A stretch of DNA of 64,000 bases from Massilia sp. 9096 (lineage in GTDB: Bacteria; Pseudomonadota; Gammaproteobacteria; Burkholderiales; Burkholderiaceae_D), in assembly GCF_000745265.1 (NCBI RefSeq), contig NZ_JQNN01000001.1, positions 2,852,001 through 2,916,000 of the forward strand, written 5' to 3'. Within the stretch, counting starts at the first letter, position 1; every line of letters starts with the position of its first letter. The notes below the pieces were generated by a model. The model did not search any database, was not told the DNA's origin, and saw nothing but the letters and a program-made list of their open reading frames with translations. The translations under genes were made by a program, and so were the position numbers. Below, piece by piece: positions 53,328-60,284 of the stretch.

Positions 53328-54221
53328 TCAAAGGACGCCGGCTTCGCGCAGCGCGGCGCGAACGGTGTCGTGGTATTGCGCGGACAGCGGCGCCAGCGGC
53401 AGGCGCAGCCCGGCCGGCATCTTGCCCATTTCGGCCAGCGCCCACTTCACGGGCACCGGATTCGGCTCGACAAACAGCTTGCTGTGCAGCGACAGCACGC
53501 GGTTGTTGATTTCGATGGCGCGCGCGATCTGGCCCGACATCGCCGCGGCGCACATCTCGCTCATCGCGCGCGGCGCCACGTTGGCGGTGACGGAGATGTT
53601 GCCGGCGCCGCCGCACAGCATCAGCGCCAGCGCACTGGCATCGTCGCCCGAGAACACGCCGAATGGCTTGTTGCCGGCGAACGAACGGTCGAGCTCGCGC
53701 AGCAGTTCGATGCCGCGCGCCAGGCTGCCGGTCGCATCCTTGATGCCGATAATGTTGTCGATCGGCGCCAGGCGCAGCACGGTCTCGGTGCTCATGTCGG
53801 CGACGGTACGGCCCGGCACGTTGTACAGGATCACCGGCAGGTCGACGGATTCGGCGATCGCCTTGAAGTGGCGGAACATGCCTTCCTGCGTCGGGCGATT
53901 ATAGTACGGGACCACTTGCAGCGAAGCATTTGCGCCGACGTCCTTAGCGTGACGGGTCAGCGCGATCGCTTCGGCGGTCGAGTTGCCGCCGGTGCCGGCG
54001 ATGACCGGAATGCGCCCCGCGACGTGCTCGACCGCCAGCTTGACCAGTTCGCAGTGTTCGTCCGGGCTGACGGTGGCCGACTCGCCGGTGGTGCCGACGA
54101 TGCAGATCGCGTTCGTGCCTTCCGCAATATGCCAGTCGATCAGTTTGCGCAGGCTGTCCTTGTCGACAGTGCCATCTTCAAACATCGGCGTGACGATTGC
54201 TACTATGCTGCCCTTAATCAT
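53328..54221 (-). CDS. dapA: 4-hydroxy-tetrahydrodipicolinate synthase
   Basis: First committed enzyme of lysine and diaminopimelate synthesis: condenses pyruvate with aspartate semialdehyde. 297 residues, normal length. Schiff-base lysine K161 in IGIKDATGS, catalytic Y133 in LYNVPGRT, and pyruvate loop GTTGES at 43-48. A TACAAT -10 lies about 40 bases upstream of the ATG. Followed by bamC. Confidence 0.97.
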
Positions 54222-54346: not shown

Positions 54347-54901
54347 TCAGGCATCCAGCCGCGCCGCCGCCGGATCGAACCGCGGCGCCGCCGCGCACAG
54401 GCGTTGCACGCGCGCCGGCCTGGGCTGGGCCGTCACGCCGTCCTCGTACGCGATGACGTGCAGGCCGGCCTGGCGCGCGAACTCGAGCAGCTCGCCGGGC
54501 GCCAGCAGGAAGGCCGGATTGGATGGTTTGCCGAAGACTTCGTTCCCCTGGCCGAAGGTTTCGTAGACCAGGACGCCACCCGGCGCGAGCGCGCGCGCGA
54601 GCCCCGCCATCAACGGCCGGTGCAGGTAGTTGGTGACGACGATGCCGGCAAAACGCCCATCCGCGAACGGCCAGGCCGCGCCGGGCGCTTCCAGGTCGTA
54701 TTCGACGGTGGCGATGCCCTGCCCCGCGCCCTGGCGGACGCGCGCCAGCGCCTGCGGGTCGCGGTCGAGCGCGAGCACCGGGTGGCCCAGCGCGGCCAGC
54801 AGGCGCGCATGGCGTCCGCCGCCGCACGCCAGGTCGAGCGTCTCGCCGGGCGGCATGATGGGCGCGAAGCGCGCGACCCAGGCGGATGGTAAATCAACCA
54901 T
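54347..54901 (-). CDS. Class I SAM-dependent methyltransferase, TehB-like
   Basis: A 184-residue small methyltransferase. Motif I is LDLACGGGRHARLLAA; the acidic post-I residue is in VLALDRDPQ; YETFGQGNEVFGKP and LLEFARQAGLHV follow in the order seen in TehB-type enzymes. It overlaps the trpS stop by eight bases (ATGGTTGA). Substrate unknown, possibly thiol or metalloid compounds. Confidence 0.88.
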   Translation of the reverse strand: MVDLPSAWVARFAPIMPPGETLDLACGGGRHARLLAALGHPVLALDRDPQALARVRQGAGQGIATVEYDLEAPGAAWPFADGRFAGIVVTNYLHRPLMAGLARALAPGGVLVYETFGQGNEVFGKPSNPAFLLAPGELLEFARQAGLHVIAYEDGVTAQPRPARVQRLCAAAPRFDPAAARLDA

Positions 54902-55844
54902 ACGACAAGCCCATCGCCTCGCGCACGTCGCGCATGGTCTCCTGGGCCAGTTTACGCGCCTTGTCGCAGCCGTCGGCGACGATGGCGCGCACCAGCGACG
55001 GATCGTCCAGGTAGGGCTGGGCGCGTTCGCGCACCGGCGCCTGCTCGGCCAGCACGGCGTCGATCACCGGCTGCTTGCACTCCAGGCAGCCGATGCCGGC
55101 GCCGGTGCAGCCCTTGACCACCCAATCCTTCGTACTCGCGCCCGAATACACCTCGTGCAGCCGCCACACCGGGCATTTCAGAGGGTCGCCCGGGTCGGTG
55201 CGGTGCACGCGCGCCGGGTCGGTCGGCATGGTGCGGATCTTCCTGGTGACGCCGGCCGGGTCTTCGCGCAGCGCGATCGCATTGGCGTAGCTCTTGCTCA
55301 TCTTGCGGCCGTCCAGGCCCGGCAGGCGCGACGCCTCGGCCAGCGTGACCTGCGGCTCGACCAGGATGATCTTGTGACCGCCCTCGAGGTAGCCGAACAG
55401 GCGCTCGCGGTCGATGTTCGACAGGCTGCCGGCGTCATCGAGCATGGCCTGGGCCTGCTCGAGTGCGGCGGCGTCACCTTCCTGGCGGTAGGCGGTGCGC
55501 AGCTCGGCGTACAGCCTGGCGCGCTTGCTGCCCAGCTTACTGACCGCGTCGAGCGCCTTTTGCTCGAAGTCCGGCTCCTTGCCGTACAGGTGATTGAAGC
55601 GGCGTGCGATCTCGCGCATCATCCCGATGCCGGCCGCCAGCCAGTCGACCACCATGTCCCAGGTGTGCTTCTCGATGATCGCCGGGCCGTCGTAATGCGT
55701 GGTCGGCGCGTGCCAGTCGGCCACGAAGAACAGGCAGGGCAGCTCCGACTGCATGCGGATCCAGTTCTTCAGCGCCCCATGGTAGTGACCGAGGTGCAGC
55801 AGCCCGGTCGGCCGCATGCCGGAAACGACGCGATCGGGATACAT
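54894..55844 (-). CDS. trpS: Tryptophan--tRNA ligase missing about 83 residues of the catalytic core
   Basis: A 316-residue TrpRS-like frame. The start (MYPDRVVSGMRPTG), HLGH (the HIGH motif, residues 17-20), KMSKS (in GLDGRKMSKSYANAI) and the conserved tail up to GLSYG are all present. Betaproteobacterial TrpRS is about 400 residues. At residues 73-75 the text jumps from DWLAAGI straight to MMREIARRFNHLYG, skipping the segment that normally carries FVQSxVPEHAEL, the LLQSADIL block and VPVGEDQxxH, which bind tryptophan and ATP. The frame is not broken, but the product could hardly be active. See findings. Confidence 0.9.
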   Translation of the reverse strand: MYPDRVVSGMRPTGLLHLGHYHGALKNWIRMQSELPCLFFVADWHAPTTHYDGPAIIEKHTWDMVVDWLAAGIGMMREIARRFNHLYGKEPDFEQKALDAVSKLGSKRARLYAELRTAYRQEGDAAALEQAQAMLDDAGSLSNIDRERLFGYLEGGHKIILVEPQVTLAEASRLPGLDGRKMSKSYANAIALREDPAGVTRKIRTMPTDPARVHRTDPGDPLKCPVWRLHEVYSGASTKDWVVKGCTGAGIGCLECKQPVIDAVLAEQAPVRERAQPYLDDPSLVRAIVADGCDKARKLAQETMRDVREAMGLSYG

Positions 55845-55848
55845 CGGC

Positions 55849-56502
55849 TCAGGTCAGCAGGAAGTTCAGCGGCGAGACGATCGCGTTCAGCAGCACTTCG
55901 CCGAGCACGCCGAAGATCGCCAGCCAGTAGCCGATCACGTGGGTCACGATCAGCACCAGCAGGATGATCAGGCCGTAGGGCTCGAGGCGCGCGTACTTGT
56001 AGGCGGCCTTGTGCGGCAGCAGGCTGAACACGACGCGTCCGCCGTCCATCGGCGGGATCGGCAGAAGGTTGAAGGCCATCAGCCACAGGTTGGTGGTAAT
56101 GCCGGCCTGCGCCACCAGGGTCGGGAAGCGCTCGTTGACCTGGAAATGCTGCAGCAGGATGCCGAACACGGCCCAGATCACGGCCATCACGAAGTTGGCG
56201 GCCGGGCCGGACAGCGCGACCCAGGCCATGTCGCGCTTCGGGTTGCGCATCTGGCCGTAGTCGATCGGCAGCGGCTTGGCGTAGCCGAACACCGGCAGGC
56301 CCATCAGATAAAGCACCGCCGGAATGACGATCGTGCCGACCAGGTCGATGTGGGCGAGCGGATTGAAGGTGGTGCGGCCGGCGGCGTGGCCAGTGTTGTC
56401 TCCGAAGTGCCGTGCGACGAAGGCCTGGACGGCGTCGTGCATCGTGAGCGCGAAAATGATCGGAAGTGCGTAGACCGCGAGGTTGCGTATGAGTTCATCC
56501 AT
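55849..56502 (-). CDS. Site-2 protease (M50) family membrane protein with altered HExxH motif
   Basis: A 217-residue polytopic protein of the S2P/M50 family: four to five membrane helices, FGYAKPLPIDYGQMRNPKRDM and NLLPIPPMDGGRVVF (D153) as in the family. The first zinc motif, normally HEAAH-like, reads H22-D-A-V-Q26, losing the catalytic Glu and the second His. It lies four bases upstream of trpS in the usual cluster. It is either a pseudoprotease or uses Asp in place of Glu. Confidence 0.88.
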   Translation of the reverse strand: MDELIRNLAVYALPIIFALTMHDAVQAFVARHFGDNTGHAAGRTTFNPLAHIDLVGTIVIPAVLYLMGLPVFGYAKPLPIDYGQMRNPKRDMAWVALSGPAANFVMAVIWAVFGILLQHFQVNERFPTLVAQAGITTNLWLMAFNLLPIPPMDGGRVVFSLLPHKAAYKYARLEPYGLIILLVLIVTHVIGYWLAIFGVLGEVLLNAIVSPLNFLLT

Positions 56503-56577: not shown

Positions 56578-57201
56578 CTACAAGCCGAACGCCGCCGGAT
56601 CGCCGCGTCCCGCGCGCAGCAGCACCGGCTCCAGGCCGGTCAGGTCGACGATGGTGGTCGGCTCCAGCGTGCCGGCGCCGCCATCGATGATCAGGTCGAT
56701 CTGCTTGCCGAGGCGCTCGCGCACCTCGTCCGGATCGGACAGCATGTGGTCGTCGCCGGGCAGCTGCAGCGTGGTGCCGATCAGCGGCTGGCCCAGCTCG
56801 CCCAAAAGCGCCAGCAGGATCGCGTTCTCGGGCACGCGGATGCCGATCGTCTTGCGCGACGGGTGCGACAGCCGGCGCGGCACCTCGTGGGTCGCGTCCA
56901 GGATGACGGTGTACGGCCCCGGCGTGCTGGCCTTGAGCAGGCGGTACTGGCGGTTGTCGACGCGCGCGTAGGTCGAGATTTCGGACAGGTCGCGCACCAG
57001 CAGCGTCAGATGGTGTTTCTCGTCGACGCCGCGGATCCGGCGCAGCTTCTCGACCGCGGATTTATCGTCGAGACGGCATACCAGCGCATACGCCGAATCG
57101 GTCGGGACCGCGACGATGCCGCCCGATTCGATGATCTGGGCGGCCTGGCGGATCAGGCGCGGCTGCGGGTTCTCGGGGTGGATTTCGAAAAATTGACTCA
57201 T
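56578..57201 (-). CDS. YciO/TsaC-family L-threonylcarbamoyladenylate synthase-like protein
   Basis: A 207-residue YrdC-domain protein that binds nucleotides and double-stranded RNA. Block IVAVPTDSAYALVCRL is the family start loop, and KHHLTLLVRDLSEISTYARV and TIGIRVPENAI are further conserved elements. Its length and position with rnm suggest YciO rather than the essential TsaC, which is expected elsewhere. Precedes the M50 gene by 75 bases. Confidence 0.92.
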   Translation of the reverse strand: MSQFFEIHPENPQPRLIRQAAQIIESGGIVAVPTDSAYALVCRLDDKSAVEKLRRIRGVDEKHHLTLLVRDLSEISTYARVDNRQYRLLKASTPGPYTVILDATHEVPRRLSHPSRKTIGIRVPENAILLALLGELGQPLIGTTLQLPGDDHMLSDPDEVRERLGKQIDLIIDGGAGTLEPTTIVDLTGLEPVLLRAGRGDPAAFGL

Positions 57202-58356: not shown

Positions 58357-59199
58357 ATGCGCGCAATCATCAAAACCCTGGTAGGCACTGCAATCACCGT
58401 GGCAGCCATGTCGGCCGCCCATGCAGATAGCCAGCTGTTCAACTGGAACCTGAACCTGCCGGGCGGGAATGCCGTCACCGGTATCAACCAGCTGGGCTTC
58501 AACGGCGACAGCTTCATCCAGAACAACGGCTTCGGCACCGGCGACAACTTCACCTTCACCGACAACGGCATCTTCAACATCACGACCAAGAACGCCGGTA
58601 CGTCGATCACCAGCAACGGCCTGGGCGGCGGCCAGCTGACCGGCAACTACTTCGGCGGCACCGGTACCGGCAGCATCAGCAGCGGCCAGATCACGTTCAA
58701 CGCCGGTGGCGAACTGGACATCTACTACAACCCGACCCAGACCTATGACGGCGCCGGCGCGACCGTGGCCAACCGTGACGGCGCCACCAGCGGCACGCTG
58801 ATCGCCCGCTTCACCCAGGTCGCCGGTGGCGGCGGTGCGATCAATCCGGACGGCACCCCGAACAGCAACGGCCAGCTGACCCTGAATTTCGTGTCGAGCT
58901 ATTTCGCACCGGGCGTGTTCACCGATGCCAACGGCAATGCGCTGATGTCCGGCTACACCATCGGCTTCGTGACCGCCAACGCGTCGCAAGACCTGGGCAA
59001 CGCCTCGAGCGCCACCGCCCGCGAAGCGCTGAGCGGTTCGGCTGACACCATGAACGCCCCGCCGGCCTACTTCTACGTCAACAACGGCGGCCAGCTGAAG
59101 CTGAACACCAGCACCAGCGCCGTGCCGGAACCGGCATCGCTGGCGATCTTCGGCGCCGGCCTGATGGGCCTGGCCTTCCTGCGTCGCCGCAAGTCGTAA
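58357..59199 (+). CDS. PEP-CTERM sorted surface protein
   Basis: A 280-residue exported protein: signal peptide 1-23 ending AHA, a Gly/Asn/Thr-rich beta domain, and a C-terminal sorting signal VPEPASLAIFGAGLMGLAFL with a final RRRKS. Such proteins are cut at the PEP motif by exosortase A and linked with exopolysaccharide and flocculation. A sigma-54 promoter precedes it; TCGGCCGG terminator follows. The function of the central domain is unknown. Confidence 0.93.
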   Translation: MRAIIKTLVGTAITVAAMSAAHADSQLFNWNLNLPGGNAVTGINQLGFNGDSFIQNNGFGTGDNFTFTDNGIFNITTKNAGTSITSNGLGGGQLTGNYFGGTGTGSISSGQITFNAGGELDIYYNPTQTYDGAGATVANRDGATSGTLIARFTQVAGGGGAINPDGTPNSNGQLTLNFVSSYFAPGVFTDANGNALMSGYTIGFVTANASQDLGNASSATAREALSGSADTMNAPPAYFYVNNGGQLKLNTSTSAVPEPASLAIFGAGLMGLAFLRRRKS

Positions 59200-59250: not shown

Positions 59251-60124
59251 ACGCCAAAAATTCCTCGATCATCTGCGCCAGCAATTCCGGCTGGTCGTGA
59301 TGCAGCATATGCCCCGCCTGCGGCATCATCTTCGGCGTGACGTGGGCGATCTGCGCCAGGCGGCGGTCGACCTCCGCGCGCGCCTGCTCTTTCGGCCCCA
59401 TCCAGCGCCACATATCGGTGTGCTCGGCTTCGATCCACAATACCGGCGCGACGATCTTGCGCCAGCAGGCCAGCACCTCTTCCGCCTGGTACAGCAGGGG
59501 CCCGGTCATCTTGTGGGCCGGGTCGCCCAGGATTTCCCAGAGTCCCTCGCCATTGCGCGCCGCCCAGTGCCCGGCCAGGAACGCCGCGCGCGCGTTGGAC
59601 AGGCGCGGATTGGTCTTCTGCAGGCGCGCCGCCACCTCGTCCAGGCTGGCATACCCGCGCATCGCCGGCGGCAGCTTGACCTCGTCGAGCCATTTGGCAT
59701 AACGTCCCGGCGCCTGCTCGGGTTGGGTGGCCGGCAGCCCGAAGCCTTCCAGGTTGATCAGCCTGGCAATACGGCCGGGGCGCACGCCCGCATACACGCT
59801 GACGATGTTGCCGCCCATGCTATGGCCGAGCAGATTGACCGGCGCCCGCGGCGAATAATGGTCGAGGATGGCTTCCAGGTCGGCGAAATAATCCGGGAAC
59901 CAGTAAGTGTCGCTGCCGGAGCGCTCGGACAGGCCGAAACCGCGCCAGTCCGGCGCGATCACGTGCCAGTCGCCCCGCAAGGCGTCGACCACGAACTGGA
60001 ACGAGGCCGACATGTCCATCCAGCCATGCGCCATGAACAGCTTGGGCGCGTCCTCCCGGCCCCAGTGGCGCACGTGCAGGCGCAAGCCGCGGATGTCGAG
60101 GAATTCGGAGCGGGACGGGGTCAT
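59249..60124 (-). CDS. Alpha/beta hydrolase
   Basis: A 291-residue cytoplasmic hydrolase. Nucleophile elbow GHSMGGN; oxyanion region MAHGWMDMSASF; DWRGFGLSERSG block, and the catalytic His in MPQAGHMLHHDQP. Cap domain of the epoxide hydrolase/haloalkane type. Substrate not identifiable. Confidence 0.88.
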   Translation of the reverse strand: MTPSRSEFLDIRGLRLHVRHWGREDAPKLFMAHGWMDMSASFQFVVDALRGDWHVIAPDWRGFGLSERSGSDTYWFPDYFADLEAILDHYSPRAPVNLLGHSMGGNIVSVYAGVRPGRIARLINLEGFGLPATQPEQAPGRYAKWLDEVKLPPAMRGYASLDEVAARLQKTNPRLSNARAAFLAGHWAARNGEGLWEILGDPAHKMTGPLLYQAEEVLACWRKIVAPVLWIEAEHTDMWRWMGPKEQARAEVDRRLAQIAHVTPKMMPQAGHMLHHDQPELLAQMIEEFLA

Positions 60125-60284
60125 GGCGGCCTCAAAATAGTACGGTCGTTCAGATTATAGCCCAAGCTTGATTTCGCGCGGTGCATCCCCATCTGCCGGG
60201 CTTGCCGGACGATGGCGGGCGCAGGGCGTACAATGTCGGCGTTTGCAAATCACCCTTCAACCCTTCCCTTTAGCGAGCACATCC

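Follow-up and report, generated by a model that had tools for sequence, protein, structure and literature searches.

The tryptophanyl-tRNA synthetase gene trpS1 in the window (the whole stretch of 64,000 nucleotides analysed here, from Massilia sp. 9096) is very probably a pseudogene in decay, a redundant housekeeping gene seen midway through its loss. The case for a dead gene is built on the site that its product has lost, the presence of a second gene, repeated losses in relatives and the fact that no other short form turned up in what was searched. Two features expected of a pseudogene were seen: an intact gene of the same family lies elsewhere in the genome, and loss is tolerated in relatives, since no trpS1 copy was found in 36 of the 62 genomes of the genus. 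The latter count also dissolves the paradox implied by an earlier sequence-only reading of this DNA, which had presented the gene as a broken copy of an essential enzyme.

The truncated gene and the residues removed from it

The trpS1 remnant (54894..55844, minus strand; 316 residues) encodes a tryptophan–tRNA ligase of the PRK12283/NF008922 type from which an internal segment has been deleted in frame. The reading frame is free of internal stops and frameshifts and runs, as the sequence-only reading had described, from HLGH (residue 17) through KMSKS (residue 181). Alignment with related TrpRS proteins, which that reading had proposed as a check, places the gap precisely: relative to the orthologue from Massilia sp. 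Bi118 (L034; 399 residues), residues 75–158 are gone, corresponding to 84 residues or 252 bp in frame, and the join carries one changed residue. The deletion, its frame and its position (junction codon 55623–55625) therefore stand as first described, whereas the size given then, about 83 residues, becomes 84 on alignment with relatives. Among the best 120 of 8000 scored candidate proteins, only the window's own has 316 residues and the remaining 119 have 399–400, in agreement with the length of about 400 that had been expected for relatives. No comparable gap was found in the other 25 trpS1 matches among the 62 genus genomes, which span 398 or 399 of the 399 residues. The NF008922 model (400 positions) matches the remnant in two pieces with 524.9 bits, below its curated cut-off of 572; a full-length relative scores 754.2 bits.

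The best-scoring solved structure for a full-length trpS1 relative was the TrpRS of Thermotoga maritima (TM0492; 2G36). Asp138 of the relative pairs with Thermotoga Asp136 (chain position 148 in the 2G36 alignment, with the numbering offset of 12 derived from the HIGH motif), a prokaryote-conserved residue in contact with the indole nitrogen, according to PMC2954223. The deleted residues 75–158 contain the equivalent of this aspartate together with the VPVGEDQ stretch. Column conservation was assessed on a panel of 93 distinct sequences, the remnant included, and 43 of the 84 deleted columns are invariant in the other 92. From this mapping we infer with high confidence that the 316-residue product would have lost tryptophan activation, which supports the earlier expectation that it should not bind tryptophan. 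It is extremely unlikely that the short protein still acts as a tryptophan enzyme, either alone or paired with the product of the second gene, TrpS2: the HLGH and KMSKS motifs are intact, but the Asp136 equivalent and the VPVGEDQ stretch are gone, and TrpS2 shares only about 33–43% identity with the TrpS1 type where the two match, so that mixed dimers would be unlikely.

The C-terminal half retains a four-cysteine stretch, C-x21-C-x6-C-x2-C (Cys224, Cys246, Cys253 and Cys256; 55077..55175, minus strand), which resembles the [4Fe-4S] site of the Thermotoga enzyme. The four cysteines are present in all 93 distinct panel sequences, the remnant among them, and fit the pattern C-x(21–24)-C-x6-C-x2-C in the anticodon-binding domain; by motif, trpS1 is an Fe–S-type TrpRS.

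The deletion junction lies at 55623..55629 (minus strand), where the 84 codons present in relatives are missing. The first eight of 80 relative loci, taken as the sample for comparison of repeats, all carry a direct repeat at both edges of the stretch that is deleted in the window, of 6 bp (CATCGA or CGTCGA) in seven and of 4 bp in the eighth (L034). Repeats of at least 6 bp occur in 0.6% of 52752 breakpoint pairs with similar spacing in the same genes, and the window's join is the plain product of a repeat deletion except for one base. The edge repeats and the join thus fit a putative deletion between short direct repeats.

The missing stretch was sought elsewhere in the genome. A DNA search (40 of 273 candidates scored) gave 41 short matches, the best with an E value of 0.001 over 24 bases and the longest covering 55 bases at 75%, and in a protein search (six of six candidates scored) its residues matched trpS2 only. 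Translocation of the stretch was dropped as an explanation, because neither of these searches found it in the genome.

The sequence-only reading had also offered the option that the sequence is wrong. An error of sequencing or assembly, or a variant confined to the sequenced culture, would leave the organism itself with a full trpS1; this would accord with a short form represented by a single sequence on a single contig from one strain of the species and with a remnant that shows at most mild decay. We regard it as unlikely, however, because the assembly is in two contigs with a completeness of 100, the corresponding edges in relatives carry the short repeat, as a real deletion would leave, and the missing DNA does not turn up elsewhere in the assembly. 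A true loss is moreover plausible given the presence of trpS2, and such loss is common in the genus.

A second synthetase gene and the distribution of the two types

In the family search, the window's assembly was found to hold, besides the two trpS1 pieces, one trpS above the TIGR00233 cut-off (G000:C1:197237-198223; 227.2 bits against 176.75). This gene, trpS2, encodes 341 uninterrupted residues, with HLGH, KMSKS and VPVGDDQ present, and contains a single cysteine, so that it is without the four-cysteine motif. Among solved structures it scored best against Deinococcus radiodurans TrpRS II (1YI8 and 2A4M; E value 2.7e-119). A second trpS elsewhere in the genome, one of the explanations put forward from the sequence of the window, is thus present and intact, and trpS2 probably does the tryptophan charging in this strain. 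Some bacteria are described in PMC2954223 as having two TrpRS genes, only one of which has the Fe–S motif.

Of the 62 genus genomes, the window's included, 25 have a full-length trpS1, one has the cut gene and 36 gave none, and an open frame for trpS2 is present in 60. A repeat search with trpS2 as the query sampled 56 of the 62 genomes and matched 55; the other five of the 60 are based on the first protein search. Of the two genomes short of an open trpS2 frame, both among the 36 without trpS1, G025, a fragmentary draft, shows a piece at a contig end. G073, a draft rated 100% complete, gave no TrpRS by protein search or with the TrpRS family model, probably owing to a contig gap in the draft. 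Two further observations concern gene number. G064, in which trpS1 was not found, has an extra TrpRS-like gene in a 449-residue frame beside trpS2 (G064:C1:3837472-3838314; L152), and G018, with contamination rated at 7%, carries a pair of trpS2-like genes separated by about 3.8 kb (G018:C5:55479-56459 and 59260-60240).

A survey of the family covered 392 genomes drawn evenly, with thresholds of E ≤ 1e-70 for trpS2 and E ≤ 1e-60 for trpS1; contig-end pieces and the window's own cut gene were scored as present. trpS1 was found in 260 genomes and trpS2 in 278, with both in 153, trpS1 only in 107, trpS2 only in 125 and neither in seven. One of these seven has another TrpRS above the cut-off, and four are at least 90% complete, yet yielded no TrpRS with the family model; some assemblies are thus without any visible TrpRS, which puts a small error on the counts of absence. 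A trpS1 gene is present in some member of all 44 sampled genera of the family compared with 15 of 44 for trpS2, leading us to take trpS1 as the older state. The 153 genomes that hold both genes argue against loss as a rule, as trpS1 is not always dropped.

Thirteen family genomes with weak, split or double trpS1 matches, picked from the per-genome table, were searched again. In seven the gene is cut by contig ends (G102, G148, G157, G170, G311, G345 and G398), in four it is full or nearly full and divergent (G086, G093, G134 and G225) and in G307, an assembly rated 48% complete, it is split with a stop. In G285, of another genus, trpS1 is split over two frames inside a contig (G285:C54:17835-19030; L219) and trpS2 is present; this is a possible second case of decay, or a draft error. 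G276 has equal-score trpS1 matches near both ends of one contig (G276:C1:31017-32213 and 7421505-7422701), possibly from an untrimmed circular overlap.

The locus, the number of losses and selection on the remnant

All of the neighbouring genes considered here lie on the minus strand. Upstream of trpS1 is an M50 peptidase gene (55849..56502), the stop of which is 4 bp from the trpS1 start, and beyond it an L-threonylcarbamoyladenylate synthase gene of the sua5 type (56578..57201), which served as the upstream synteny anchor. Downstream, a methyltransferase-domain gene (54347..54901) has a listed start that overlaps the end of trpS1 by 8 bp and is followed by dapA (53328..54221), the anchor used to find the locus in relatives. 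The M50, trpS1 and methyltransferase genes look like one operon. Elsewhere in the window, the gene at 58357-59199 (plus strand) encodes a protein whose C-terminus carries a PEP-CTERM sorting signal.

Apart from the window's own, the genus set has 61 genomes, and loci around dapA were taken from 60 of them, G025 being left out because its dapA is at a contig end. The order sua5–M50–[trpS1]–methyltransferase is kept in 59 of the 60; the locus of the 60th, G062, is cut by a contig end, and this genome has its full trpS1 on a different contig. trpS1 lies between the M50 and methyltransferase genes in 24 loci, while in 35 those two genes adjoin, so that the locus was read in 35 of the 36 genomes without trpS1. 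In G034, G067 and G080 dapA is some kilobases further off. In the 35 trpS1-free loci, 2–87 bp (median 18) separate the M50 stop from the position aligned with the window's methyltransferase start, an end point set by the alignment rather than by the start codon of each locus. Reading these gaps by eye for a trpS1 scar gave one resemblance of ten bases (G013), judged to be chance. In the 24 intact loci, the M50 stop is 1–21 bp from the trpS1 start, and 19 of them allow a methyltransferase start that would share 1 or 4 nucleotides with the trpS1 stop.

Maximum-likelihood trees were calculated from five neighbour proteins, with 61 rows or, without G062, 60 rows, and G062 was excluded from the counts of trpS1 change. 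On the 60-genome tree, the presence and absence of trpS1 requires at least six changes. The tree count alone cannot tell loss from gain; the changes are best read as losses, because trpS1 is taken as the older gene and always occupies the same place in the loci that were read. Of the 57 inner branches of the 60-row tree, 38 are well supported. Support is weak inside a group of six genomes that includes G071 and G075 (81/36) and at the placement of the window itself (93/67); the window's row sits on a long branch and is no more than 83% identical to any other. We estimate that the number of changes could fall to about five if weak branches were rearranged.

On its own branch the remnant has a dN/dS of 0.256 (0.144–0.394), far below 1. 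Intact trpS1 lineages gave 0.062, 0.111 and 0.146, with intervals that overlap that of the remnant, and the full-length gene of G075 gave 0.285, above the remnant; for the window's own lineage, five other genes gave values between 0.116 and 0.408. Of 142 columns that do not vary otherwise, the remnant departs at four, more than any other of the 93 sequences (the next has two), although one of the four is the junction itself, and under a laxer rule (columns at which all except three sequences agree) its six departures tie with those of the intact L204. About six stops would be expected in the remnant if the whole of its own branch were neutral; dN/dS and stop codons are too loose a basis for dating the deletion. 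With no stop or frameshift and a dN/dS that is far below 1 and not above that of all intact lineages, the data do not establish relaxed selection after the deletion, which would have to be recent. Decay is mild at most and the deletion looks recent on these measures; dN/dS and departures by themselves would fit a dead gene as well as one that is kept. Four full-length trpS1 genes (G017, G005, G035 and G021; L208, L210, L206 and L207), found beside trpS1-free groups, show about twice the protein divergence of several other intact lineages, which may reflect loosening before loss.

A low dN/dS is also what might be seen had the remnant been kept for a new, non-catalytic role, for example binding tRNA-Trp or an Fe–S cluster through its C-terminal half, and the open frame, the four cysteines and the retention of that half point the same way. 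Synthetase duplicates with roles outside translation are covered in a review (PMC9437257). Such a role, which the sequence-only reading had raised, is nevertheless very unlikely and has gained no positive support: no second short form was found in the best 120 of 8000 proteins or in the 62 genus genomes, the loss of 43 invariant residues of the catalytic core makes folding itself doubtful, and the low dN/dS may date from before the deletion. Its more specific form, in which the remnant was fixed after the TrpS2 takeover as a tRNA-Trp binder or as an iron or redox sensor acting through the Fe–S half, is if anything less probable still.

A decaying pseudogene remains the preferred reading, and the following course of events would account for it. 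trpS2 would have taken over tryptophanyl-tRNA synthesis, after which trpS1 would have become dispensable; slippage or recombination between short repeats may then have cut out the core of trpS1, leaving a product presumably unable to activate tryptophan. As the cut was in frame, translation of trpS1 would still terminate within the beginning of the following gene, an arrangement that might preserve translational coupling in the operon, but an in-frame deletion is expected one time in three by chance. The end state would be full excision, as seen in relatives.

Significance and comparison with known systems

A loss intermediate of a redundant aminoacyl-tRNA synthetase is known in kind and ordinary, and synthetase duplicates have already been reviewed (PMC9437257). 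Repeated loss of TrpRS within one genus together with a half-way case was not met in the literature searched, and we claim no wider novelty. The mildly interesting part is the repeated loss of an Fe–S-type TrpRS. One family spans genomes with the Fe–S type only, with both types and with the TrpRS-II-like type only, and within the genus loss takes place at one conserved locus, which should make the replacement of one synthetase by another traceable step by step. This raises the question of why some lineages keep the Fe–S-type TrpRS and others drop it.

Among known systems, the TrpRS of T. maritima resembles trpS1 in its four cysteines, which align with those of trpS1. The first spacing is C-x21 in trpS1 and C-x22 in the Thermotoga enzyme, the former within the C-x(21–24) range given in PMC2954223. 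The trpS1 relative L034 differs in having about 70 residues (approximately 173–244) between the Rossmann part and KMSKS that are unmatched in the Thermotoga protein, and the window's copy, unlike that protein, is without the tryptophan site. According to the same source, most carriers of the Fe–S motif are thermophiles or other extremophiles, whereas the motif occurs here in the Massilia group. The likeness of trpS2 to TrpRS II of Deinococcus makes it TrpRS-II-like, with the difference that trpS2 is here the widespread TrpRS of the genus. With respect to the PRK12283/NF008922 ligases, the remnant is orthologous by sequence and locus but falls below the model's cut-off, 84 residues of the catalytic core being gone. 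In the general pattern, a redundant housekeeping gene is lost after a second synthetase gene has taken over. The present case is the same in that old and new genes coexist and the old one has been lost repeatedly, and differs in that an internal in-frame deletion is observed ahead of full excision.
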